Source of the DNA: Sipunculus nudus
Lineage: Eukaryota > Annelida > Sipuncula > Golfingiida > Sipunculidae
NCBI GenBank assembly: GCA_026874595.1
Contig: CM049306.1
Span: forward strand, 28,759,519-28,823,518
Direction of reading: 5' to 3'
DNA: 64,000 nucleotides
Made by a program: the position numbers and the translations under genes. This document shows, one piece after another, positions 4,141-63,098 of this stretch (position 1 is the stretch's first letter; the number at the start of each line of letters is the position of its first letter). The notes under the pieces are model-generated. The model made no database searches, was not told where the DNA came from, and saw only the letters and a program-made list of their open reading frames with translations.

Positions 4141-6102
4141 TTTTAGCTCAGCTGACTGTAAGTCAACTGAGGTATAGGAATGGCGCTTTGTCCGTCGTCC
4201 GTCCGGCCGTCCGTTAGCACGGCACAAATCGTAACTGCTGGACCTAGAAACTTCTAAGTGAATATCCAGGGAGGTAAATAAAAAATCTCCTTGGAAACCT
4301 GAAATTAGGTCACTGCGACCTATATCCTCCGAGCTATGGGGCTTGAAAGTACCCCCAAGAATAATCAAAAATATAATACAAAACCTCCAATATCTTGATA
4401 ATTAATGCATGGATTGTCATGAATCTTGCCTTGAATATTGACCATGACTAGATTTGTCAGTTCCCGAAAAGTCGTGGCGCCACCTGTATTTTTTGTTATT
4501 TTAAAGAATATTTTTTTTTTACCATGAAATGACAACAATCATGTCAGTTTCTCAGCTGTAATTACATCTAGTGTCCCAAAACCTGGTGTGTTTATTGATC
4601 ACAAGTGGATGCCATATAGTAATCACCCTGTCTGGCTGTCTGTTTGTCTGTCTTTCTGTCCATCCACACAAATTTGTTTCCAAATGATAACTCCAGGTTG
4701 TATTGACACAGATTTTAAACTTGACTAACATATGGCCCACCACTCAAGCAAAACCTATATGATCTTGGGGTCATGAGGTCAAAGGTCAAGGTCACAGGAC
4801 TCACTGTTTTAAAAAGATTATGGCTACATTTTAAGCCAAGCTTTTCATCCCAAACTTTCCATTTTGCACATTTAGCCGACTTGCCATTATGGGGAGAGCA
4901 TAAATGAATTTCGGGTCACATGGTCAAAGGTCAAGGTCACAGGGGCCATCTGTTCACAAATTAGTTTCCAGATGATAACTCCAGTTTAGTTTGACATATT
5001 GGTTTCAAACCTAACTTATATATGACTCACCACTAAAGTAAGAACTGTGTGGATTTTTGGGTCCAACGGGCAAAGGGCATGGTCACAGGACTCATTTCTT
5101 TAAAAAGAATGCATATGTATTTGAAGCCAAACTTCTCATCCCAAACCTTCCATCTTCAAGATATTGCTAACCTGCCAATAGGGGAAGATTCTGTTCAATT
5201 TCGGGGTCATGAGGTCAAAGGTCAAGGTCACAGTACCCACTTATTTTTGAAAGATTGTGGATGCGTTAAGCCAAACTTTTCATCCAAAACCTTCCATCTT
5301 GCACATATAGCTGAGCTGCCAATAGGGGAAAAACTGATTGATTTGGGGGTCACAAGGTCAAAGGTCATCGTCACAGGGACCCATCTGTCCACATATTTGT
5401 TCCTGGATGATAACTCCAGTTTGATTGACATATTGGTTTCAATTTTGACGTATGTATGAACCACCAATAATAGAAGAACCTTTTTGATTTTGGGGTCATA
5501 AGGCCAAAGGTCAAGGTCACAGGACCCACTTCTTTAAAAAGATTATTGATGTATTTTTAGCAAACTTTCTGTCCCAAACATTCTATCTTTCAGATGTTGC
5601 TCACCTGACAATAGTGGAAGTAACTGATGGATTTTGGGGTCACAAGGTCAAGGTCATGGGGGCCATCTATCCACATATTAGTTTTTAGATGATAATAACA
5701 GTTTAGTTTGAAATATTAGTTTCAAACTTGACTTATATATGTCCACCACTAAAGTAAGAACTGTTGATTCTGGGGTCATGAGATCAAAGGTCAAGGTCAC
5801 AGGACCCACTACTTTAGAAAGATTGTGGATGCAATTTAAGCCAGACTTTTCATCTAAATCCTTCCATCATTAACATGTGGTGCACCTGCCAATAGGGTAG
5901 TTTCCTTTCGATTTTGGGGTCGTAAGGTCAAAGGTTAAGGTCACAGGGCCCATCCATTCACAAATTAGTTTAAGGATGATAACTCCAGTTTGTGTAGACA
6001 GGTTGGCTTCAAACTGATCACAGGACCAATATTTTAGAAAACCTCATAAACATATATCCTTATAGACAAATGCAGCTGAGCGTCGAGACCCATGGGTCCC
6101 TA
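4141..6102 (-). mobile_element. Non-autonomous tandem-core repeat element, minus orientation (Helentron/pearl-like?)
   Basis: Read on the minus strand, the element begins near 6102 with GACCCATGGGTC and a GACGCTCAGCTG motif. It then runs through several degenerate tandem units (4740-6060) built around 'aggtcaaaggtcaaggtcac', 'ttttggggtcat' and 'ccaaaccttccatctt'. It ends with a GAC-rich microsatellite, a stem-loop (4145-4173) and AGCTAAAA. Its last part (4145-4480) is a reverse-complement relative of the unit that ends the element at 46.6 kb. The 5' motif GCTCAGCTG is complementary to the arm of the 3' hairpin. No coding capacity. The Helentron/HINE-like or bivalve 'pearl'-like assignment is inferred from this layout only. 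Confidence 0.55.
4145..4173 (-). other. Terminal stem-loop of the 4141-6102 element
   Basis: AGCTCAGCTGAC, a five-base loop and GTCAACTGAGGT form a stem of about 12 bp with mismatches. On the minus strand the hairpin is followed immediately by TAAAA, as at the ends near 34.8 and 46.7 kb. Confidence 0.55.
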
Positions 6103-6943: not shown

Positions 6944-8103
6944 TTGATATATTGGGTTTGCGCCCAGAGATTGGAACTAGGACTCGTTTACAAGATTTGA
7001 TAGCTTATTCACAACCGACTCAATGACAAGGAGGCACACGATTTATGTGTTCCATCGGGGACCCACGGAATTAAATTCTTCGTAAAGCCGCCAGTGGGCG
7101 TGGTTAGTGTCCCTGGCTGCCATAGGATTATGACCCGTATAAAATCAAATCTTTCTCATTAACTAAACCGGAGTGCATAACAATACCCCACTGAGAACCA
7201 GCTGAGAGTGAAATAAACATCAGCGGCCCCGCGGAGAACATCATAATCCAAGTTCTTCTTCTGGATACAGTTTAGGGCATATGGGTCACGTGGGTGACCA
7301 AATGGTACCGGGGAATCATGGGATTGTTTATGAAGCGGAACGACACCTGTATTTAGATGAATGAATTATAGCTGATATTACTATTGGATATAACCCACCT
7401 AAGGTGACACCATAGCTCACGCGCTTAATAGCGACCATGGGTCTCTGCCTTGAATATTGCGTTGGATAAATCAACACAACGTAGCCTGCGTTGTCTCGAT
7501 TAGAGCAATAATCATGGCTAATAAGCAAGGAGCGTGTCATTTTCGTAACCCATTATTGTCTAAATCATGCTGTCTTTATACTTGTTCCTCTACCCAAAAT
7601 ATAAACATCAAAATATAACAAGTTTTTTACAGGCAATAATTCTGATTGAAATAATCAGTTTTGTAGCTGTTATCTAACAACGAACGTTCTTTAAACACCG
7701 ACTGGTATTGGTTTTATGTGGGTTACTGGACGAAAGATAAACGAAAACCTGCTACAGTACACGAAGTTATGAGTCTAGAACAGGATATGATTATATTTCA
7801 TTTAGAATAAAATTCGGAGTAAAGACATCAGGTCTCTCACATAAATGATGACTTTGGCAGCAAGCTGTTTATAGGCGTAAATTACCTTTCTAAATATAAG
7901 GTAGCCAAACTAAAGTAGGATAAAACCTGATATCGTCTTGGATCGGGTTATCATAACCGTATCATACGAGTTTGTAAGCCGATACAGGTAATTTTGGTTC
8001 TGTTGTGCTAATGTAAATCAATGAATACAGCTGCAGATAACTTTTATGGTGAATTTAAAAGGTACGCTTCCACAGACCTTGATTAAGCCAGCCGCTCTTG
8101 GGT
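6944..8103. other. Non-coding interval between the direct repeat copies
   Basis: No gene or structured element recognised. Confidence 0.5.
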
Positions 8104-8104
8104 C

Positions 8105-8198
<94 letters not shown>

Positions 8199-37129: not shown

Positions 37130-38465
37130 AAACAAGGGCACCGCAAAGCGGAGCATCCCCTCACATGGGAGCATAATGATATGGGGTGTATTATGCAAGT
37201 GTTAAAATGAGGTGGGGAGGTGTGTGAGCTTGAGCTTTGATGTCAAACTCAATAAGTTGTACGTGTATCGGTGTGTGAGGCATATGTGCGAGATGAAAGG
37301 TTTTGGTCAAATGGTTTGGCTTAAAATTGATCCATAAGCATTTTCAAGAAGTGGGTGCTGTGGCCGTGACCTTTGACCCCGTGACCTCAAAATCGATAGG
37401 TTTCTTCATCCATGGGTGGGTAAGCCATATGTGCGAGATGAAAGATTAACGTCAAATGGTTTTGCTTAAAATGTGTCCACAAGCTTTTTCAAGAAGTGGG
37501 TGCTGTGGCGATGATCTTTGACCCCGTGACCTCAAACTCGATAGGTTTCTTCAACCATGGTTGGGTGAGCCATATGTGCATGATGAAAGGTTAAGGTCAA
37601 ACCGTTTTGCCTAAAATGGGTCCACAAGCTTTTCAAGAAGTGGGTGCTGTGGCCGTGACCTTTGACCCTGTGACCGCAAAATCGAGAGGTTTCTTCATCC
37701 ATGGGTTGGTGAGCCATATGTCCAAGATGACAGGTTTAGGTCACTTGGTTTTGCTTGAAATGGGTCCTAAAGCTTTTTCAAGAAGTGGGTGCTGTGGCTG
37801 TGACCTTTGACCTCAAAAACAACAGGTTTCTTTATCAATGGGTGGGTAAGCCATATGTGCGAGATGAAAGGTTTTGGGCAAATGGTTTTGCTTAAAATGT
37901 GTCCACAAGCTTTTTCAAGAAGTGGGTGCTGTGGCCGTGACCTTACAACCCATGACCTCAAAATCGATAGGTTTCTTCATCAATGGGTGGGTAAGCCATA
38001 TGTGCCAGATGAAAGGTTTAGATCAAACGGTCTGGCTTTAAATCGATCCACAACCTTTTACAAGAAGTGGGTGCTGTGGCCGTGACCTCAGACCCCGTGA
38101 CCTCAAAATCGACAGTCTGCCTTATCAATGTGTGGGTAAGCCATATGTGCAAGTTGAAAGTTTTTGGGCAAACAGTTTGGCTTAAAATGGGTCCACAAGC
38201 TTTTTCAAGAAGTGGGTGCTGTGGCCGTGACCTTCGACCCCGTGACCTCAAAATCGATAAGTTTCTTCATCAATGGGTGGGTAAGCCATATGTGCGAAAT
38301 GAAAGGTTTTGGGCAAACCGTTTGGCTTGAAATTGATCCACAAAGCAATTTCGGACAGACAGACGGAAGGATGGACAGACAGACAGACAGAGAGACGCAC
38401 GAACGGAGGCGTTACTATATCCGTTTTGCAACTTCCTTGCGAGGGGATAATAAGGAAGAAAACAC
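37130..38465 (+). mobile_element. Tandem array of ~145-bp units with GACAGACG tail
   Basis: The string 'gtgggtgctgtggc' recurs at 37351, 37496, 37640, 37785, 37922, 38067 and 38212, spaced 145, 144, 145, 137, 145 and 145 bp. Each unit also has 'gtgacctttgaccccgtgac', 'ataggtttcttcatc' and 'gtgggtaagccatatgtgc'. The array begins after 'gcggagcatcccctcaca' and ends in (GACA)n, then 'ttgcgaggggataataagg'. The two ends share an inverted ATCCCCTC(A/G)CA motif. It resembles the other tandem-core elements but with its own unit. Non-coding despite chance open frames on both strands. Confidence 0.8.
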
Positions 38466-42899: not shown

Positions 42900-45800
42900 T
42901 GGACCCACATCTTTTTACACAAAATACTAAAGATGCATTTAAATTTAATCTTATACACACATCTTTCTTCCTGTGTATAAACAGGGTACTTCCTATAACA
43001 AACATCAATGTACATGCAATATTTGGTAATGATTTTAACTTCAGTTTCAAATCTGTTTAATTAAATAATTTTCTTAGTATAATAAATTTGATTTAACATA
43101 CATGATATATGGTTAACCCTTTTGTGATGTTCATACTTTATCTGTGATTTTACTAGCCCTTCAATAATTTATTGTTTGAATACTAGTATTTACACTAGTT
43201 TGATTTATTTTTCATTTCAGTTAATTAGATGACTTGACAAAACCAACTTTCAAAAGTTATAAAATCTTTGCTTTAGCAATATATATTTAGCAAGACTTCC
43301 TTGAATGTTTATAAAACAAGTGACCCATGGGTCATGACGCTCAGCTGACAGGGAAGAGATTCGCAAAAGGAAATTTTATCACCAGAATGGTAGTATATAC
43401 CCATTCAACTGAAGCATCAAACAGATTAACCAACAGGCCAAGATTTAGTCTGTATTTATATATCTCAAAAATAGAGAAAAATGTGTAAACTTTTAAAACT
43501 AGAATACGGGTAACCGACAAGTGACTACATGTATCTGCCAAAATCGGATAGTGAGGCATGGAAATGAGTGGCAAGGGGAAATAGAGTGAGGTATGTTGCA
43601 TATCAGCATGGATGTCTGCAGCCTAAATGTGTATGTAGGTTGTGCCACCTACCACAAATCCAGAAAGCTGTCCAAGTTGTATACACCTGCAAAATTTTAG
43701 GCAGAAAAGTCAAACCACTACATGTATATGAGCGATTTTTGCCCATGGCAGACAAACAGACAAACACTGTGCAAAAATCTTTGCAGGTAACCCCTCCAGT
43801 TTTGTGTATGATAAAGACCTATGTGAGATCTAAACACATGCACAATTTTGGCCCAATCGGTCAAATGGTTCCTGAGATATGAGCTTGGATGTGTCCAGCG
43901 TTAACTAGAATGTAGGTGGCGCCACCTGTCATAAAATCAAGAAAGCTGTCCACGATGTATAAACCTGCAAAATTTTAGGCAGTTATGTCAAACCACTACA
44001 GAGAAATGAGTAATTTTAGGCCACGGCAGACTAACAGACAGACGCTGTGCAAGCATTGTTACAGGTGGCGCCACCATTTTTTGTGTATGTTACAGAGCTA
44101 TCAAAGGGCTACATTTGTATAAATTTTATTTCCTGATCGGTCAAACGGTTCCCGAGATATAAGCTTGGATGTCATCAGCGTGAACGTGAACGTAGGTGGC
44201 GCCACATGTCATAAAATCAAGAAAGCTATCCTGGATGTATACACATGACGAATTTCCGGTAAATTAGTCAATTCACTGCAGTGATATGAGTGATTTTAAC
44301 CCAAGGCAGATGAACAGATGGACACTGTGCAAACATGGTTACAGGTGGCGCCACCATTTTTTGTGTATGTTATAAAGCAATCCGAGGGCTACATTTGTAT
44401 CAATTTTATTTCCTGATCGGTCAAACGGTTCCTGAGATATGAGGGTTTATGAGTGGAAACAGACCCACAAATGGACACTGGATAGAGAGGAAAGGTCAGA
44501 GGTCAATGCAAATTGGTTAGGCACCAGTTCACATGTGACCCGATAATAGGTGTAAGTTTGGGAAAAATCGGTCCATTAGTCTCCGAGGAGCTCTCTGGAA
44601 ACGAACGCCGCAAAAACTTTGTTTTGGCGGATACAAAAATACAGGTGGCTCCACCAGTCTGCAGAAACTAATAAAAACACTTAATGGTCAATATCCATGC
44701 AAAAAATCATGGTGATCTCTGCATTAGTTGTTCAGATACTTCAGTTTTTGTATCAAATTGTCCATTATTCTGAGGGATACTTCGGAGTCCTATAGCTTGA
44801 AGGATATGGGTAACAGAGACCTAATTTCAAGTTTCCACAGGCACCTTTCATGGGCCTCCTTGCATGACAAGAATGAAGATTCTAGGTCCAGTTGTAGCGA
44901 TTTGTACCCTGTTGACAGATAACCACATCTTTAAAGGTCTCAAAAAAAAAAAAAAAAATTCGTAAAAATTTGAAAAAAAATAGAGGTGGCACACCCAGTC
45001 TGCAGAAACTGATGGAACAGCTCATGATCAATATGTATGCCGAAAATCAAGACGATCAGTGTTGTAGTTATTGAAATACTGCAGTTTTTGTATCAAATTT
45101 TCCATTATTCTGGGGGGGGGGGGGGGTATTTTGGACCCATTCAGCTTAAAGAATATGGGTAACAGAGACCTAATTTCAAGTTTCCATGGAGACTTTTCAT
45201 GGGTCTCCCTGTGTGTCAAGAATAAAGATTCTTGGTCCAGTTTTTATGATTTGTGCCCTGTTAACAGATGTTCATATCTTTAAAGGTCTCAAAAATACAG
45301 AAAAATTTCGTAAAAAAAACGAACAAATACAGGTGGTGCCACCAGTCTGCAGAAACTTATGAAACACTCCATGATCAATATCCATGCAAACAATTATGGT
45401 TATCTCTGCATTAGTTGTTCAGATACTTTAGCTTTTGTATCAAATTTTCCATTATTCTGATCTGTACTTTGGAGTGCCATAGCTCAAAGGATATGGGTAA
45501 CAGAGACCAAATTTCAGGTTTCCATGGAGACTTATCATGGGTCTCCCTGTGTGTCAAGAACGAAGATTCTAGGTCCAGTCGTTACGATTTGTACCCTGTT
45601 GACAGATAACTACATCCTTAAAGGTCTCAAAAATGGAGAAAACAATTCGTGAACATTGAAAAATACAGGTGGCGCCACCAGTCTGCACAAACTGATGAAA
45701 CATCTCATGATCAATATGTATGTCGAAAATCATGACCATCAGTGATGTAGTTAATGAGATATTGAAGTTTTTGTATGAAATTTTTGACTATTCTGGGGGG

Positions 45801-48800
45801 TAATTTTGGGCCCCATAGCTCGAAGGATATGGGTAACAGAGACCTAATTTCTGGTTTCCATGGAGACTTTTCATAGGTCTCTCAGTGTTTCGAAAATGAA
45901 GATTCTAGGTCCAGTCGTTACGATTTGTGCCACGCTAACAGATGACAGCATCCTCAAAGGTCTCAAAAATAGAGGAAAAAATCGTAAAAAATCAAACAGT
46001 ACAGGTGGCGCCACCAGTCTGCAGGAACTGATCGAACATCTCATGATCAATATATATGCCAAAAATGAAGACCATCAGTGATGTAGTTATTGAGATATTG
46101 AAGTTTTTGTATGAAATTTTTTACTATTCTGGGGGGTACTTTGGGGCCCCATAGCTCAAAGGATATGGGTAACAGAGACCTAATTTCTGGTTTCCAAGGA
46201 GATTTTTCATGGACCTCTCAGTGTGTCAAGAATTAAGATTCTAAGTCCAGTCTTTATGATTTGTGCCTTGTTAACAGATGTTCACATTTTTAAAGCTCTC
46301 AAAAATAGAGAAAAAAATACGTAAAAAATCGAAAAATACAGGTGGCGCCACCAGTCTGCAGGAAGTGATGTAACATCTCATGATCAATATGTATGCCAAA
46401 AATCATGACCATCAGTCAAGTAGTTAATGAGATATTGAAGTTTTTGTATGAATTTTTTTACTTTTCTGGGGGGTACTTTGGGGCCACATAGCTCGAAGGA
46501 TATGGGTAACAGAGACCTAATTTCTGGTTTCCAAGGAGATTTTTTATGGACCTCTCAGAATCCCAAGTTACAAGGTTCTAGGTCCAGCGGTTACGATTTG
46601 TGCCTGGTTAACGGACGGACAGACGGACAGACAGACAGACGGACGACGGACAAAGAGTGATCGCTATAGCTCAGATGACTTTCAGTCAGCTGAGCTAAAA
46701 ATGAGTTATATCTCCCCCCCCCCCCCCGACAGCATGTGTTGTTTTAACCTGAATGGAAGCAACACTTGGATTTACACCAAATTTGAACTTCTTTGGCATT
46801 TTCACAATACTACTGTATATGATAAATTTCAGTAACATCCATTATACCATCTCCAGATATGGCACAGACATGCACACACAAACAGAGAATCAGGTAAAAG
46901 CAACAACCTTCACTTCACCTAAGTTAATCAAGGAAACCAAGTTCCTAAAATTGTCCCATTGAGTAGCAGAAGTAGTTTTAGCTACCAATGAGAAGAGAAA
47001 ACATTTTGTAATTTGGCATAATGATGTGTTTAATGTGTGAGATAAACTATTTATATAATCATTTGCACTTAATGAAAGATTGTTACATTATTAAATCATT
47101 TCCAATCAAACATAAATAAGCACTGGAATGCAATGAGAAACAATATGATTCCACTGTTCTGACCTCATAAATGTATGAGCTTTATAGGGTCAAAGGGACC
47201 TGAATGACAGAATGAAGCAGATAACAGTCTCAGAAATCTTTCACAGGCAGTATATGAAATTGAGCATCCTGACTTTCCATCTCAGGTGCTTCAAAATGGA
47301 AACCTGAGATATTTGAGAGTTGTCATGAACTAGAGTGTCACTCACCACATCAAGTCTACCAGCCCTCCCTGGCTGGCAATGTCTGCTTTAATTCTGTTGG
47401 CAAAATGCACAGCATCCTCATCATCCTGTAATATATAAAAACTTCAATACACATCCAGTGCTGAACAAAGACTGAGCAAACATCAGCCTGTGTATGTTCT
47501 ACACACAGCTTACATCTTTATCATGATACCCTGACTGCCTCAAATGTTTCTGCGCCAACTGGCTGCATAGCATAAAATTTGTAACTTTTCAGAGTTGACC
47601 CCATAATTGTTATGGATTTCTACACAACAGCTAATTTTCAGAGTATGGGTATAAACAAGTAGGTGGTATACTGACAATAACATGCTTGGTCAGTCACTGG
47701 TAAGGTTGTCAAGTAGACTTGTGGCATCTGACCTTTTAATCTGAACTTGTCCACTTAAAAATTAATACCAACTGCTTCATTAATGATTAGGATTTATAAA
47801 CGTAATTCTTTAATTGCCAATTCATTGTTGTCTGGGATTTTACACTTACAGTGAAAACAAGCAGCTTACCATGAATAAGTATATAAATTGTGACTGAAAA
47901 TTTTAAAAATTTCCCACCAGTGTCTGAACCATTCATCTTCAATAATTATCAGTGTTGAGGGGTTCTGAGGCTGGTCTTGGCTTCAAGGCTGATCTTAAGT
48001 CTGGGTACTCCCAGCTTTGGTCTCAGTCTCAGCCTTGGGAGGCAAAGATTCGGCCTCTGCCTTGAGCCTTACAGCCTCACTGACTCAGAGGCCAGCTCCA
48101 GGGCATGAAAGTTTAACCAGATTTGTATACTCTGCTTCTGAAAAATTTGACATGTCACCAATGTGTTGAATCAGACCAGAATTCAGACATTGAATCCTAA
48201 GGTTACATGGACTCATGGTTACTAAGATTCAGTCTTGGCCTTGGAGGGCAGTGACTATGACCTGACTTGGATGGTAGTGACTCAGACTCAGTCCTTGCCT
48301 TGGAGGGCACTGACTTTGACTCTACTTGGATAGTGGTGACTCAGACTCAGTCTTAGCCTTGGAGGTTGATGACTTTTGACTCTGACTTGCATGGTGGTGA
48401 CTCACATTCAGTCTTGGACTTCGAGGGTGGTAACTCAGACTCAATCTTGGACTTGGTGGGTGGTGACTCTGACTTGGATGGTGGTAACTCAGACTCAGTC
48501 TTAGCCTTGGAGGTTGATAACTTTTGCCTCTGACTTGGATGGTGGTGACTCACATTCAGTCTTGGACTTCGAGGGTGGTAACTCAGACTCAATCTTGGAT
48601 TTGATGGGTGGTGACTCTGACTTGGATGGTGGTAACTCAGACTCAGTCTTTGCCTTGGAGGGTGTTGACTTTGACTCTGACTTGGATGGTGGTGACTCAC
48701 ATTCATTCTTGGCCTTGGAGGGTGGTAACTCAGACTCAATCTTGGACTTGGTGGGTGGTGACTCTGACTTGGATGGTGGTGACTCACATTCATTCTTGGT

Positions 48801-51800
48801 CTTTGAGGGTGGTAACTCAGACTCAGTCTTGGACTTGGTGGGTGGTGACTCTGACTTGGATGGTGGTAACTCAGACTCAGTCTTAGCCTTGGAGGTTGAT
48901 GATTTTGTCTCTGACTTGGATGGTGGTGACTCACATTCATTCTTGGTCTTGGAGGGTGGTAACTCAGACTCAGTCTTGGACTTGGTGGGTGGTGACTCTG
49001 ACTTGGATGGTGGTAACTCAGACCCAGTCTTTGCCTTGGAGGGTGGTGACTTTGACTTGGATGGTGGTGACTAAGACTTTGTCTTTGTTGGATTTGACTC
49101 AGAATAAGCCTTTGCCTCACATGGTGGTGACTCAACTGCAACACTAGGCCAATCAAGATGACCAACATCTATAGCTTGGAGTCCTATTTCATTTCATTTT
49201 GTGTAAATGACAACAGAATACACACACTACTTACCCCTTTTATCTGAGGAGGCAGGTACCAGACATCACAGACCAGGGCCCAGCTAGTCAGGATCATCAG
49301 CAGGTGCTGCACCAGGGACTGTTTACTGCTGTTCCAAAACGCATCTCCAAAACGAGGATCATACTGTCAGGTAAAAGACATAAATAATTTCTTTTGATCC
49401 TATGCTTCACAAAGCCAAATATTTTTCATTTTGATACAATTTTTCAAGCCAGCCATTTCCATAAAATATGGACTACAAACCATGCTAAAAATTATAACTA
49501 CATACATGAAATACAGATTTCTAGGTCAATGATCACTGAGGGCTATTTCTATGAAATATGGGGTACAAATACCAATTTATTAATTATACTGAATAACCAG
49601 ATTACTTCCAAGGAAAAAAGCAAAAATAAAAATAAACACACAATTTTAATATGCATGATTTTTTAAAATGAAATATGAAAAGGCAGTGATACTATCAAAC
49701 AAATAATATTTGTGTATGCATTTATGGAACAGGAAAATTAAGATATTTAGTTATTCTACTAAAGCCTATATATTACCAAAATCTTTACCCAATTTTTGAT
49801 AATTAGACGGGTCAATATAACGCCTCTGTACCCCTACACCAAAAAAATAGCAAAATGTTGTTTTTTGGTGGTTTTATGTTTGCTTGGGTCAAGTCTATAA
49901 CATACTAAAAGTTGGACAAAATTGGAGTATGGGAAAGTGTCAAATTTTGAAGATGACTTTTGTCGATTTTTAAGTCTTTTTCCAATTACATGTGGAACTC
50001 TAACTTGGTCAGTTTTCATGAGAAATCAATAAAACTTGCATTTTCCCCCAGGTTTTCAGGGTCAGTCTTTCATATGAAATTGTTACCAGCGATGTTGAGA
50101 CGCCCCTTATACCATATCTAGGGGTAATCCAACCCCACACTCTTTTCCCACAATCACTAACGTAAAATGAGCATGCATGTTCTATCATTTTAGGTTTGAC
50201 AAGGCCTACCAATGCTCAATATGATTTTGTCATTTTGATATGTTGCAGACCTGTCCCAACCTAACATAAAACCACCAATTAACAAAATTTAGCATTTGTT
50301 TTTTTTTTTTATTTTGGGGGGGGGGAGGAGGAGGGGATTAGGGGTACTTACATTGACAAGGCATTACATTGACCTGTATACTCACTCTCCCCCCCCCCCC
50401 CCCCCCTCCTCCCACTCACTCTCTCTCTCTCTCTCTCTCTCTCACATACACTCGCACACGCGTACTCACACGCACACTCTCACACGCACTCTCTCCTTCT
50501 CTCTCTCTCACACACACACTCGCACACACACACGTTGTGGTGTCACACACACTCTCTCTCTCACACACACACTCTCTCTCTCTCTAATAAAGTTTGTTAA
50601 TTGTTTGGATTTATGTTGATTTCAGTAAACTGTATACTAGTTTTTTTCAGGGTAAAATAGGAGTTCAGCAAGCAAAGAAACCTGTCCTTTATGTGAACAG
50701 GATTTGGATTGTGAGGAGACCGTGGTGGTTCGAAAGAAAGAAGCTGAAGGTATCAACCTTGCAAGCATCAAAAGAGGCGTCAACGTCAGGGTTGAAGCTG
50801 GAACTAGTGTTCACAAAACATGTCGGGTTAACCACATAAACAAAAGGGACATTGCTAATGCCTCTAACAAGGACGGTTCAGCTCGGCCATTAAAAAGAAA
50901 CCCGCGTGTTTCCCTGGGACCATATGACAGTAAAACGCATTGCTTTTTCTGTGGAACTGATGTTACGAAAATAGACCGTAAACTAAAAAGTGATGAAAGG
51001 ATTTGCTATGTGAAGATGGATACATTTGTTCAAACTATATTGGTTCATTGCAAAACAAGAGGGGATGAGTAAGCCATTGCTGATCAAGGCCGAATCGAAT
51101 ATTTTGGTGGTGATCTTCATGCGGCAGACTGTGTTTACCACCAGTCATGTAACGTCAACTTTCGTACAATGCGGGGCATTCCAAGACAGTTCACGTCATT
51201 TGAATCTGCCAAACGACAAAAAAGTGGAAGACCAAAGGACAGCGATCAGGATGAGCCATTTGAAAGGATTTGTGTATTCCTGGAAGAAAATGATGAGGAA
51301 CAGCTAACGATATCGGACCTTGTTGCTAAAATGGAAGAATACTTGCAAAACCGTTTATCAACGGCGTATGGAAATCAGTACCTCAAGGAAAAGCTGATAA
51401 ACGATATGGAAACTCTATTTTTGTGACCGAAGGCCGTAGTGGTGTCAAAAACATTGTGACCTTTAGGGAAAAAACCTGTGACATTCTTCGTGACTACTAC
51501 AATTCACCTCAGGAAGACGACGAGGAAGCTCAGAAACGAGCAATTCTTCAAACTGCAGCAAAACTCATCAAAGGTGACATCATGACGACAGTTGCGCCAA
51601 TGGAAGATACGTGTCCAACTCCAGCTGACCTGAAACTTGCCACAGCATTAGATTTTATCCCTGCCTGTTTGCGATTCTTCCTGCATCATCTGTTTGTTGG
51701 GAAGGATACGTCCAGAAAGGTTGCTGGCATTGGACAAGCTGTTGTTCAAGCAGTGCGTCCAAGAGCTGTAATTGCGCCTTTACAGCTTGGTCTCGCGGTG

Positions 51801-54800
51801 CAAATGCACCACTTGTATAGGTCACGATTCTTGATCAATTGTCTTTCAACCATGGGGTTTGCTTCATAATACCCTGAGATACAAAGATTTGAAGTAAATG
51901 CGGCATGTTCCCTTGCTCCGATGTGTTTGGCAGTGACATAGACATTCATGATCGGTCCCTGTTATTTGCCGGAGACAACGTGGACCATAACATTATAACG
52001 TTGGATGGAAAGGGTACCTTTCATGGGATTGGAATGATAGCGGCTATCACGCCAGGGAAGCAAGTCAGTCATGGCATACCAAGACAGAAAATGGCTGACT
52101 TGAAACTTGTCGATCTGGCGAAGATTAATATCTTAGATTACCGCAACATAAAGTATGTCAACCGTAACATTGAATTTCAGTCCCTACGATACGCATCTGA
52201 TGTCTGTGATCGCAAAGTGGACATTTGCTGGGAAATGTCCTTTTTATTCCACCAGAATACTCCCGGTTGGCAAGGCATGATGCACCTGCTACATAAGGAG
52301 TGTGAGTATCTGGGAAAATCCTCCGTGCAGTTTCTCCCAATGATTGACATGAACCCAGGAGACAAAACCTGTATCCTGTCCACCCTGGATTACCTATGCA
52401 GTCTTTAGTCCAAACACAACATGCCGACTATCATTACCTTCGATCAACCGCTATTTTGGAAGGCGTCTGAAATTGCGAACTCTGTTCCAGATGATAGTCC
52501 AATCAGGAATGTGATACTATTGCTTGGCAGCTTTCATACCTTCATGAATGTGTTGGGCGCTATTAGGACTTTGATGGATGGCAGTGGACTCAAGGAGATC
52601 ATGGAGACAGTGTATGGTGAAAATGCCATCGTACACATGATGAGTGGAAAGGCAGTGCAACGAGCGTTTCGTGGCCACCTGCTGGTGCATCAGTGTCTTA
52701 CACGTCAGATCGTTGCCAAAATTGTGGAGGATGACCCTGGTTTTAAAGACCAAGTAGAGGAACTTGAGCGACTGTACATGCTGACAGAGACTGGCAAATG
52801 TGACTTAGAGTCATTGTTGGAGTCAGATTCCGTTTGTAGGATTCACAACACTCTTACTCTGAAAAAGGATGAACTAGCAAGGACCTCCAAAACCAGCAAA
52901 CTGTGGAATAACTATCAGCACATGCTAGGTATTGCTAGGGCACTTGTTGCAGCTGATGGAATGGTGTCTTGGGAGATGCATCTCAGTGCCATCTCAGCTT
53001 GCCTGCCAATATTCGCAGCCGTTGGCCAACCAAATTATCTAAAGTCGGCACGTCTTTATCTCCAGAAAATGTGTGCGTTGAAGGATGACAGCCCTGAAGT
53101 ACATCAGAAGTTCCTGTCTGGGTTTCACGTAATCCGGCGCAGCAGCCAATACTGGGCTGGCCTTGGCTCCGATCCTGTGATCGAGCAAACACTAATGCGT
53201 TCACTAAAAAGCCAAGGGGGGCTGACGCGAGGAAGTGGGATGTCTGAGCACCAGAGAACAGTTTGGGCCATGTCTTCCACTGTGTCATCCGCTTACACCC
53301 TTGCCATGCAAGAACTTACCAAGAGAAGTTATACAACAGGTGAACAACATAGAGAGTTGACAGCCTCTCGGGTGAGCAGAGATGAGGAAGACTTTGGTAA
53401 AATCGCAGAAAAACTAGACAGTTTTACACCATTTACAGCTGATGAATCGTTACGCAACATTATCACAGGGATTTTTGCCAATGAGGACGTCAATGTTCAG
53501 GACCTTTTTGAAAATTGGAAAAGACATTGAACAGAAGATGGACGGAAAATCGGTTTTCTCCTACTCCTACAAAAGAAGTTTGAAGGTGAAGACTCTAGCA
53601 TCCAGCAAGAACGTGAAAGTTTCTGAAGATCGTAGCATTGACCCAGTGCTCCTATTTCAGAGGTTTCTAGTAGTCTCACAGACGGGTGATCTTCGGCTAG
53701 AGGATGTCATGTCCTATGAACTCTGTCTTTATCCCATGTCTTTGTTTAAAGGATAGAACATCTTGCGTCAAGCAGACAAACCGCAGCTGGCAGAAGCTCT
53801 CAGAAACTATGTTAAGACCAACTCAGAATATGCTGTGACACAAACGGTTCCTGTCACACAGCACAATGTACTAGATGGAGGATCTCTTCTTCACCGCTTG
53901 AAATGGACGGAGGGGAGCACCTACAGTTCGATTGCAGACAGTTACGCCTCATTCTGTGTCGAACACTGTGGCAGAACGACTGTCCTGTTTGATGGATATG
54001 AGAATGGACCAAGTATAAAAGACTGTACTCATCAGCGGCGAACTCGAAAGCTAAATACAAACAAGGTGAACATTACTGAGGTGACAAAATTTGTTGGGAA
54101 AAAGGAGGACTTCTTGTCGAATGAGTCAAACAAGCAAGCACTGATCCAGCTGATCATGGAACGAATGCGACAGAACGGCTGTGACGTTATCCAAGCAGAA
54201 GGAGATGCCGATGTTGAGATCGCAAAGGCAGCCATTGATATGTCTGCTTCCACACCGACCACCCATATTGGAGAAGACACAGATCTCCTTGTTCTCTTGC
54301 TCCACCATGCAGAGGTCTCCAAATGTAAAGCACTATTTTTTCGCTCGGACAAGGCAAAATCATACGTCTATAATATCAAGGTCATCAAGCAGGTGCTTGT
54401 TGAAGCAGTTTGTAATGACCAACTGTTTCTACATGCCTTTACTGGATGCGACTTGGGTGTCCAGGATATTTGGAATTGGAAAGAAGTTAGGATTCCAACA
54501 ACTCATCAAGAAAGACTAGAATATCAGCAGAAGCTGACAAAAGCCCTCATCCAAAACAACAGTGTTTAGAGGTGGTAACAGTAACAAGTACTAAATATCT
54601 GTTCTCACATGGATGTATATCTGTACATGTCTCAGTTATAAATTTAAAATGCAGAGGTATGTACCATGATTCATAACAATCCACCAAATGCTTCCTGAAG
54701 AATAAGCTTCTAAGTTTTATTCTATTATAAGCTCTGTGACCTTGAAAAGTAGGTCAAGGTCACCCATCTTCGAACTTGACCGAGATTTTGTAGATATACG

Positions 54801-57800
54801 TCTTCACCAAAGAAATAAAATTCCTCTTGTGAATCCTTTTAGAGATATCCCGCTCACAAGGCCAAAGTTGAAAAATCCAAGAAAAATTCATTAAAAATCA
54901 GAAATTGCAGGTGGCGCCCCCAAACTTGTGCAGCAGTTACAGACCATCAGTCCCTATGATCATAGTAAAAATTGTGAAAATCCACCCAATGGTTTCTGAG
55001 AAATAAGCTTCTAAATGTTTTTTCTATAATCAGCTCTAAAACGTAGAAAAATAGGTCAAGGTCACCCATCTTCGAACTTGACCGAGATTTTGTCAATATA
55101 AATCTTTACCGAAAAAATAAAATTCCTACGGTGAATCCTTTTAGAGATATCCCGCTCACAAGCCCAAAGTTAAAATTCGGTAAAAATTCATTAAAAATCA
55201 GATATTGTAGGTGGCACCACCAAACGTGTGAAGCAGGTACAGACCATCAGTCCTAATAATCATAGTAAGTTTTGTGAAAATCCACCAAATGGTTCCTGAG
55301 TAATAAGCATCTAAGTGTTTTTCTATAATCAGCTCTAATATGTAGAAAAATAGGTCAAGGTCACCCATCTTCGAACTTGACCGAGATTTTGTCGATATAC
55401 ATCTTTACCGAGGAAATAAAATTCTGACGGTGAATCCTTTTCAAGATATCCCGCTCACAAGGTAAAAGTTAACGGACGCCGGACGGACGGACAGACGGAC
55501 GGACGGACAGCTTGGGTGACGACAATAGCCCATCAGCCTAGGGGCTGAGGGCTAAAAAAGCCATGAAAGACTGTTCAAGAGCATTCTCTCTACCAAAGCA
55601 AAGTCAGGATGTTGTCAAAACCAATGGTTGTAAGGCAATGGTAGCATTGTTCAATGCATCTCAGAATGACTCCCTGGCATCTATCAGATACAATATGCTT
55701 TGCAAGAAGGTTGCGAGAGCTAAAATGTTTGTCACGCCTGAAAGACTCCCACCAACTGCCTCTGCCTGTAAATTTCATTCCCTATGGACTTACTACCAGG
55801 TTATGGAGTGGATGGGATGTAGTGATGAAATCGAGCCATCTGAGTGGGGATGGAAGGTGAAAGGGGAAAAACTTGTTCCAGTGATGACAGACAAAAGCCC
55901 TGCTCCAGATGCACTGATTCAGATGATTCACTGCAACTGTTGGGAAAGATGCAATACCCTTAGGTGTACCTGCAGAAAGCATGGACTAGAGTGTACCAGT
56001 GCATGCGGACATTGCCAAAATGGCAACTGTGACAATATGACAAATGATCCAGTGATAGAAGAAGATGATGACGATGTGTGAAAAAATTTGGATAAAGCAT
56101 TATGACGTATATACCCGATGTGATTCGGGGTGGGTTCAACAAGGAGCTTAGGGGTGAGGGTACCCCTAGATATGGTACAAGGGGTGACTCATCATCGCTG
56201 GTAACAGTTTCATTTGAAAGACTGACCCTCAAAACCTAGGGGAAAATGCATGTTTTATTGATTTATCATGAAAACTGACCGAGTTAGAGTTCCACATGTA
56301 AATGGAAAATGACCTAAAAATCAACAAAAGTCATCTTTGAATTTGAACACTTTCCCATACTCCAATTTTGTCCAACTTTTAGTATGTTGTACACTAGACC
56401 AAACCTAACATAAAACTACCATAAAACAAAATTTTGCAATTTTTTTAGGTCAGTCCGTATATTAACCCGTCTAAATGGAACAACACTCACTTTTATTGCA
56501 ACAGGATACACTGTCCCTCCAACTTCAAAACTTCCTTTCTTGAACATCATGATTGATGTATTGTTAATACAAGTACCTGGAAATATACAATATGCCCCTC
56601 ATTCATTAGAATATATTTTGTAAAGTGTTTCTGCAGCTGTCTACTTTATTCACCAACATATAGGAAATTTAAGGTTTGGGGCAGGACTCTGATTTGATAG
56701 GTCTGGAACTGTTATGGATATAGAAATCAATCATCCATGTGAATTTGCGAAAGATCGATTTAAAGCATCACTGAGGGACAGACAAGGAGATAACTATAGG
56801 ACACCATTAGGGAATCTAATGAAGATGTGATACATACATACATATATTTGTATAGCGCTAATTACATATTGCATTGATATGTACTTTGTATAGAAAGTAA
56901 GTGTCTGTAAACTAGACTGGCCCAGTCAATGAAATGGCTCTGTGTCGGTACTTAGTGACGGTACTGCTACCACGCGGCAACTTACATAACTTATTACTAC
57001 TCTCGGACCCTCTTTATTTCATCGACTGGTAAATTTGGGCCGTTCCCGACAGTTAGTGCCACACATCACCGCCTTGCTGAACTAAGGTCATTCCCAGTGA
57101 CGTAAGTGGTAATTATAGTGGTCTTTTCCAGAATCTTTTTTAAAAACAACATGGTTAATTCAGTAACCGCCTATTGTGGGCTTCCAGCGTGCTATATATA
57201 TATTCACATTTAACAAGTCTTAATATGTTTAGGTGCTCGGCTATTCGAGTACGGCAAGATTTTTAACACTATATATAACCCTCAGCCTCGGTGAGTCAGT
57301 GTGTCACCATTTATCAGACCATCTCTTATCGCAGCAGGCCAGTTTTAAAATGTGTCTCTAGCTCAGCCAATCAGCGTGAGATATTTAGGTCCACACGTGA
57401 CGAACGCAGTCAAACTGTTATTCATGTACCAGCTGACTGAAACGATCACAACGTTTAGCTTGTTCACACTTAACAGTGGCTAGACCTTCATGTGTAACTT
57501 GAACACTAACAAATATACAGTACAAAATTGATGTGACATTGTCCAACATGCACTTAAATTTGGCCCGTGGACCGTGATGTTCGAACTGCAGAGATATATC
57601 ATATGATTTCAGTGCAAATGATACCAAACGGGTTGAGCTGTCTGTTGCAAATGGGACTGCTGTTAGCGTCTTCATAGCAAAGATGCCATTCACAGGAGAC
57701 TTGACGGCCTGATATGCAAATGCGATGGAATCGTCAGGAGCCTTGTAATGCCCTAATATGCAAATATCAGGGATTCACCATACAGACTTTACAGGGCTTT

Positions 57801-62679: not shown

Positions 62680-63098
62680 ATTCAGATGCAGAGACTGACA
62701 CTAGGCAAGCCACCAAGTTTGACCTAGCCTTTGTTAAGATGCATCCAACTCGAGGGTTTGGTGACTGTACCTCAACCTTTTACAAAGTTATTTTGTTTAA
62801 ACATCATTTTAGCAAGAAAACAATATAAGGTGGCGCCACCTGTCTTCTGCAGAAAACAATGCTATCAAAGATCTTATGTCAATTTGATTTTTGGACCTCA
62901 GTAAGATATTAAAGTAAACATCATTTCAGTGTAATTGCCTGTGTGACCTTGAAAAATGCATCAAGGTCATCCATATTCAAACTTGGCCTAGCCCTTGATA
63001 AGATGAATCTAAACTGTAGGTTTTGTGACTGTACCACAAATTCTTTTTGAGTTATTGCCCTAATATCATTTTAGCATAATCTCTGCTGTGACCTTGAA
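62680..63098 (+). repeat. Tandem pair, ~273-bp unit, with GGTGGCGCCACC
   Basis: 'gtttgacctagcctttg ... gtgactgtacc' near 62719 recurs as 'cttggcctagcccttg ... gtgactgtacc' near 62981. GGTGGCGCCACC at 62829-62840 is followed by 'tgtcttctgcag', as at 34256. Confidence 0.6.

Follow-up and report, generated by a model that had tools for sequence, protein, structure and literature searches.

Among described DNA transposons, the closest counterparts, by their features, of the element reported here belong to the Academ superfamily, whose AcademX lineage reportedly goes back to Kapitonov and Jurka in 2010 and to Kojima in 2020. AcademX elements carry a nuclease of the XPG type and a Cys8-type zinc finger. 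Here, a 64,000-nt window of Sipunculus nudus (contig CM049306.1 of assembly GCA_026874595.1, positions 28,759,519–28,823,518; "window" refers throughout to this whole stretch) was analysed, and genome-wide searches were run against the 1.43-Gb assembly of the species. The element at 49804–56473 of the window, 6,670 bp between its ends, is a DNA transposon copy that is now dead, very probably an AcademX-like element of the cut-and-paste type.

Academ is counted as one of 20 superfamilies whose transposase is of the DDD/E type, and does not figure among the five listed superfamilies that have a C/DxxH motif in common (PMC9587614). Target-site duplications (TSDs) of 3 or 4 bp in AcademX and of 9 or 10 bp in AcademH are linked to a nuclease and a helicase, respectively (PMC10045372), and a RecQ helicase is mentioned in Academ (PMC3627910). 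In a study with a curated bivalve library, Academ has a mean length of 5,565 bp and is nearly restricted to bivalves among molluscs (PMC10294476).

Termini, flanks and mobility

Self-alignment paired the left terminal inverted repeat (TIR; 49803–50126 in the alignment) in inverted orientation with the right one (56161–56474) at a local score of 431, compared to a best score of 152 among 288 random window pairs. The arms are ~320 bp long with 90.4% identity over 312 aligned bases, and include an exact block of ~41 bp, in agreement with the ~330-bp inverted repeats and 40-bp exact block of the first-pass annotation of this DNA. The matched outer ends (TAGACGGGT at 49804 and 56473) and the AAT on both sides of the element, which that annotation had also reported, were confirmed. 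The terminal 9-mer alone is not significant (7 matches in the window with at most one mismatch, 6.4 expected by chance), whereas the long arms are. Inside the left end lies an additional inverted and degenerate TIR-like segment, which is present at six of the seven sister loci described below and is thus part of the anatomy of the family.

A 980-bp coding query matched at least eight places in the genome at 92–96% identity, namely the window itself, six places over essentially the whole query and one over part of it; genome copy counts given here are lower bounds. At least seven further copies, which share these ends in whole or in part, are dispersed over four contigs, and were fetched with their flanks (L036–L042). 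Both ends are readable in six of the eight copies (L037 has neither outer end, and the left one is missing from L041), with 6,670 (window), 5,201, 5,143, 5,718, 5,520 and 4,577 bp between them, the shortest having an internal deletion. All eight copies, the window's included, carry stops. Matching 3-bp flanks were found in five of the six two-ended copies: AAT in the window, AAG in L036, TAT in both L038 and L042, and GTA in L039, whose left terminus is rearranged and whose boundary was placed by eye after the sequence had been seen. Based on the 3-mer frequencies of the window, the probability of at least five matches in six by chance is ~1.6e-8, a value that ignores the by-eye boundary of L039.

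The joined flanks of four copies (window, L036, L038 and L042) were sought in the genome, so that the empty-site comparison proposed in the first-pass annotation was carried out with paralogous sites of the same genome. The searches for the window copy and L036 returned nothing beyond the flanks of these copies themselves, with no empty site. The joined flanks of L042 retrieved 18 further stretches that cross the junction, and those of L038 matched 41 further stretches, some of them across the junction; two stretches were fetched for each site. Both of those for L042 (L102 and L103) span the junction with a single TAT and are gap-free there, while both of those for L038 (L100 and L101) match the site with 4–5 extra bases beside the junction. 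These paralogous unoccupied sites, together with the flanks, establish that the window family inserted as a mobile element with a 3-bp duplication, and along with the dispersed copies they bear out the initial call of a DNA transposon.

Two minor features of the copies were observed. A segment of ~309 bp (window 50656–50964, the start of the N-terminal Cys region) is kept in the window, L039 and L040 and is missing from L036, L037, L038 and L042, probably through a deletion common to a subfamily; L041 has no match at all to it. At L055 (C15:53820002–53820292), the TIR is matched (89%, query 33–323) with no coding match; this may be an isolated end or a copy with an internal deletion.

A broken gene and its intact relatives

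The gene of the window copy lies in five pieces of changing frame, which align end to end with residues 3–1457 of an intact relative, L098. One in-frame stop is present in each of coding pieces 1–4 and none in piece 5, and a second insertion of ~1.04 kb, absent from all seven sister copies fetched, is nested in the gene. Because its frame is broken and is interrupted by this second insertion, the window copy cannot make a whole protein and is a dead copy. The single intronless gene proposed earlier is indeed intronless by comparison with L098, but given the stops, frame changes and nested insertion it is not an uninterrupted gene. The nested insertion contains a GGACGGACGG run and has an end near CAGCCTAGGGGCTGAGGGCTAAAA; pieces related to it occur at 45965–46652 and 62939–63010 of the window, and at 7541–8194 of the oriented L039 sequence.

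L098 is a 6,091-bp element with one intact intronless frame of 1,460 amino acids (aa), ~40% identical to the window family. It is flanked by ATA on both sides, and its ends (TAGGCTAGTCAAAATAGCGC) resemble the outer ends of the window copy (TAGACGGGTCAATATAACGC); its TIRs score 62, and the highest score among 100 mononucleotide shuffles was 35. A third family is represented by L099, with an intact frame of 1,531 aa, the same domain order and 38% identity to L098.

In the genome as a whole, the nuclease part (P0001) gave 148 matching stretches and the DDE part (P0002) 106, where one copy can give several stretches and only the best candidates were scored (150 of 275 and 80 of 388, respectively). 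Several long open frames are present among the matches, including C8:41882752 and C12:36157944. Some related copies are regularly spaced. Three of them on C9 (L075–L077, at 36152454, 36162244 and 36172034) lie exactly 9,790 bases apart and show 1 and 0 differences over stretches of 3,756 bases, reflecting either a recent tandem duplication or an assembly effect. Other copies lie ~5.5 kb apart (C9:70957725, 70963211, 70968671 and 70974150) or 24.8 and 49.6 kb apart (C12:36157944, 36182747 and 36232351), which suggests that such elements form tandem arrays or lie in duplicated blocks.

Domains of the encoded protein

A profile of the nuclease domain (A1, eight rows) matched five distinct human EXO1 sequences over ~190 residues (E-values 3.1e-5 to 4.6e-4) and GEN1 weakly (E 0.83). 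The alignment with EXO1 pairs the Asp of a VFDG motif and residues E150, D152, D171, D173 and D225, plus the GIGK region; these EXO1 acids bind metal. With a profile match of this kind and the metal-binding acids aligned, identification of the domain as a FEN/XPG nuclease, as first proposed, is well supported. Searched singly, the window nuclease sequence matched no FEN/XPG entry in either Pfam or the PDB. Conservation of the acids was counted over 25 distinct loci, with six overlapping or duplicate ones left out (L068, L076, L077, L081, L084 and L088, the window's own included): D40 in 25/25, D79 in 20/25, D150 in 22/25, D152 in 18/25, D174 in 24/25, D176 in 24/25 and D232 in 22/24, although the 25 loci do not form an independent sample, many of them being copies in decay that come from the same families. 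D40, which we take to correspond to the first FEN/EXO1 Asp, lies outside the EXO1-aligned stretch. The domain differs from EXO1 and FEN1, both of the XPG superfamily, in that one catalytic Glu is replaced by Asp, and in that a transposase-like core is joined to it within one protein, all parts being in a single frame in L098.

Upstream of the nuclease, D, D and E motifs are kept across the three families in an alignment of proteins ~40% identical, which points to a putative DDE transposase core. D184 (in TFDQPL) is conserved in 19 of 20 loci and E238 in 21 of 23; D152 of this part, D in 18 of 18, is a rival candidate for one of the catalytic positions. The stretch corresponding to the C/DxxH motif reads GxFHT, and so has neither that C nor that D. 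The DDE alignment (A2) comprised six rows, stop-bearing rows being excluded. Pfam DUF6589 (PF20231) matched the DDE part below threshold in L098 (E 0.0011) and in three of the six A2 members (best 4e-4), and did not match P0002 or L099. The 26 genome places that match DUF6589 at E ≤0.001 are all distinct from those matched by P0001 or P0002; given the weak likeness to the DDE part of some members, DUF6589 may be transposase-related too. Against solved structures, the DDE profile had one match, a lectin chain (E 0.0017) taken to be spurious, and the C-terminal part of L098 a single match at E 1.8. Two further sub-threshold Pfam matches, OmpA_membrane to L098 (E 0.001) and LacAB_rpiB to L099 (E 0.0075), were set aside as chance.

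Two N-terminal Cys/His clusters are present in L098, L099 and the window; no named type of finger was assigned to them. The cysteine-rich tail, which we presume to be of the CXC type, was aligned in 22 of the 25 loci, and its nine cysteine columns hold C in 22/22 (five columns), 21/22 (one) and 21/21 (three). No CXC model of Pfam matched the eight pieces scanned or L098. Of the combined zinc, DDE-like and CXC protein described initially, the Cys/His clusters, the D, D and E motifs and the cysteine tail are all seen.

Comparison with Academ and alternative explanations

Several described features of AcademX recur in the present elements. TIRs occur in the window family and L098. A 3-bp TSD, within the 3–4-bp range, is present in the five copies with matching flanks, in L098 (ATA) and at the empty sites of L042 and L038. 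A nuclease is encoded in the same element, on the evidence of the EXO1 profile match and the single frame of L098. Four of the five two-ended sister copies are 5.1–5.7 kb long, near the Academ mean of the bivalve study. The subterminal TIR-like segment and the CXC-like tail do not appear in the available portion of the AcademX description. AcademH, placed in the same superfamily in the literature, differs in having a helicase in place of the nuclease and the longer TSD; no helicase family was listed in Pfam scans of the pieces, L098 or L099. Since the 3–4-bp duplications and nuclease described for AcademX match those of the element, AcademX-like is the best name, and the Academ-like assignment of the first-pass annotation is upheld on these described features. 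The element fits as a further member of an already known transposon group.

A number of observations weigh against this identification. The name is based on a comparison of described features. The flanks of L040 do not match (GTA/TGG). D28 (in DNVDH), the first of the candidate catalytic residues, is readable in only 3 of 25 loci, although it is D in all three. The structure predictions for the two domains, suggested at the outset and run with AlphaFold on single sequences with no alignment, gave unusable models (mean pLDDT 35 and 36), so that we infer the DDE fold from the motifs. The A1 profile is of low diversity, with three of its eight rows from one family (L098, L083 and L091) and two from another (L075 and L080), and the Pfam XPG models matched none of these rows. 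No Pfam family reached cut-off for any of the eight pieces, L098 or L099, and searches of NCBIfam and PHROGs with five of the eight pieces gave nothing meaningful. In L099, the tail keeps RCKC and then loses its cysteines, for which a shift of frame may be responsible, and a search of ~1 kb on each side of the intact frame gave no TIRs.

In its intact form, the element would encode one intronless protein of ~1,460 aa, in which Cys/His clusters at the N terminus are followed by a DDE-type core, then by a nuclease of the FEN/XPG/EXO1 family and lastly by a CXC-like tail. The Cys clusters, the tail or both may bind DNA. The DDE core would cut the transposon ends and join their 3' ends to the target with a 3-bp stagger; the duplication is seen in the flanks and empty sites, and the chemistry is presumed. 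The fused nuclease might cleave or trim the other strand at the ends, or act on flaps left by excision. By analogy, the protein could conceivably be a one-protein counterpart of Tn7 TnsB/TnsA, with the DDE part cutting one strand per end and the nuclease the other. The CXC tail would then add a third component, specific to this branch, that binds DNA; we regard this whole proposal as tentative.

The nuclease might instead be a passenger that is dispensable for transposition. The occurrence of a helicase in its place in AcademH (PMC10045372) indicates that the accessory enzyme is exchangeable, but the nuclease acids are largely kept (D40, D174 and D176 above all, in loci that are not independent), and we consider a passenger role rather unlikely. 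Less likely still is that the element belongs to another or an unnamed DNA transposon superfamily that acquired a FEN/XPG nuclease independently of Academ. The comparison with Academ by description and the sub-threshold DUF6589 match of the DDE part leave some room for this, while the 3-bp TSD, encoded nuclease and size fit AcademX as described. Neither the 8-bp TSDs of hAT and Zisupton, nor the TTAA of Kolobok, nor the 6–7-bp TSDs of Dada fit the element. A host or domesticated gene that merely happens to lie between repeats, as might be suggested by the likeness of the nuclease part to a host repair enzyme and by the long open frames in the genome, is hardly credible in view of the TIRs, TSDs, dispersed near-identical copies and empty sites, the stops in all eight window-family copies and the 148 matching stretches of the nuclease part among the best 150 of 275 candidates; it is ruled out for the window locus, a refutation that covers this locus and not intact loci of the L099 type, where no TIRs were seen.

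The ends, duplications and empty sites connect to transposons those long intronless proteins that combine a nuclease core with a CXC-like tail. In the S. nudus genome, it is therefore preferable to mask such proteins as products of transposons and not to count them among host genes. The intact relatives provide material for asking what role a repair-type nuclease has inside a transposase.

Outside this genome, no relative was found in viral contigs, for which the nuclease and DDE pieces and a single degenerate motif served as queries, or in plasmids and phages in a translated search with the nuclease piece only. Prokaryote genomes searched with the motif only gave 26 stretches and no relative, and translated alignment of 27 motif loci likewise identified none (best E 0.058).

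Feature coordinates and repeats in the window

Table 1. Features of the window copy and its flanks, in window coordinates.
Feature	Position	Strand	Evidence
Left 3-bp TSD, AAT	49801–49803		Flank comparison
Left TIR, outer end TAGACGGGTCAATATAACGCC	49804–50126	+	TIR alignment; sister-copy comparison
Subterminal inverted, degenerate TIR-like segment	50185–50380	-	Window self-comparison; sister loci
Coding piece 1, with both N-terminal Cys/His clusters and the region after them	50677–51396	+	Homologous to L098 residues 3–246; one stop
Coding piece 2	51399–51911	+	Homologous to L098 residues 248–417; one stop
Coding piece 3, putative DDE transposase core	51965–53500	+	Homologous to L098 residues 433–958; TAG at 52406–52408
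Candidate catalytic D, D and E codons in piece 3	starts 51974, 52442, 52604	+	Conserved motifs
Coding piece 4, linker and FEN/XPG/EXO1-like nuclease domain	53511–54452	+	Homologous to L098 residues 962–1271; one stop
Nuclease domain, including GIGKK motif after frame change	~53862–54516	+	Alignment; EXO1 profile match
Nested insertion (~1.04 kb), three ~300-bp repeats	54513–55557		Absent from seven sister copies; boundaries accurate to within a few bases
Coding piece 5, C-terminal region	55545–56063	+	Homologous to L098 residues 1288–1457; start overlaps uncertain insertion edge
CXC-like cysteine cluster in piece 5	55932–56030	+	Tail alignment, 22/25 loci
Right TIR	56161–56473	-	TIR alignment; sister-copy comparison
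Right 3-bp TSD, AAT	56474–56476		Flank comparison

An Rfam search of the window gave no match. Self-comparison of the window also revealed tandem-like repeat arrays at 4667–6015, 37243–38343, 44635–46615 and 48216–49134.

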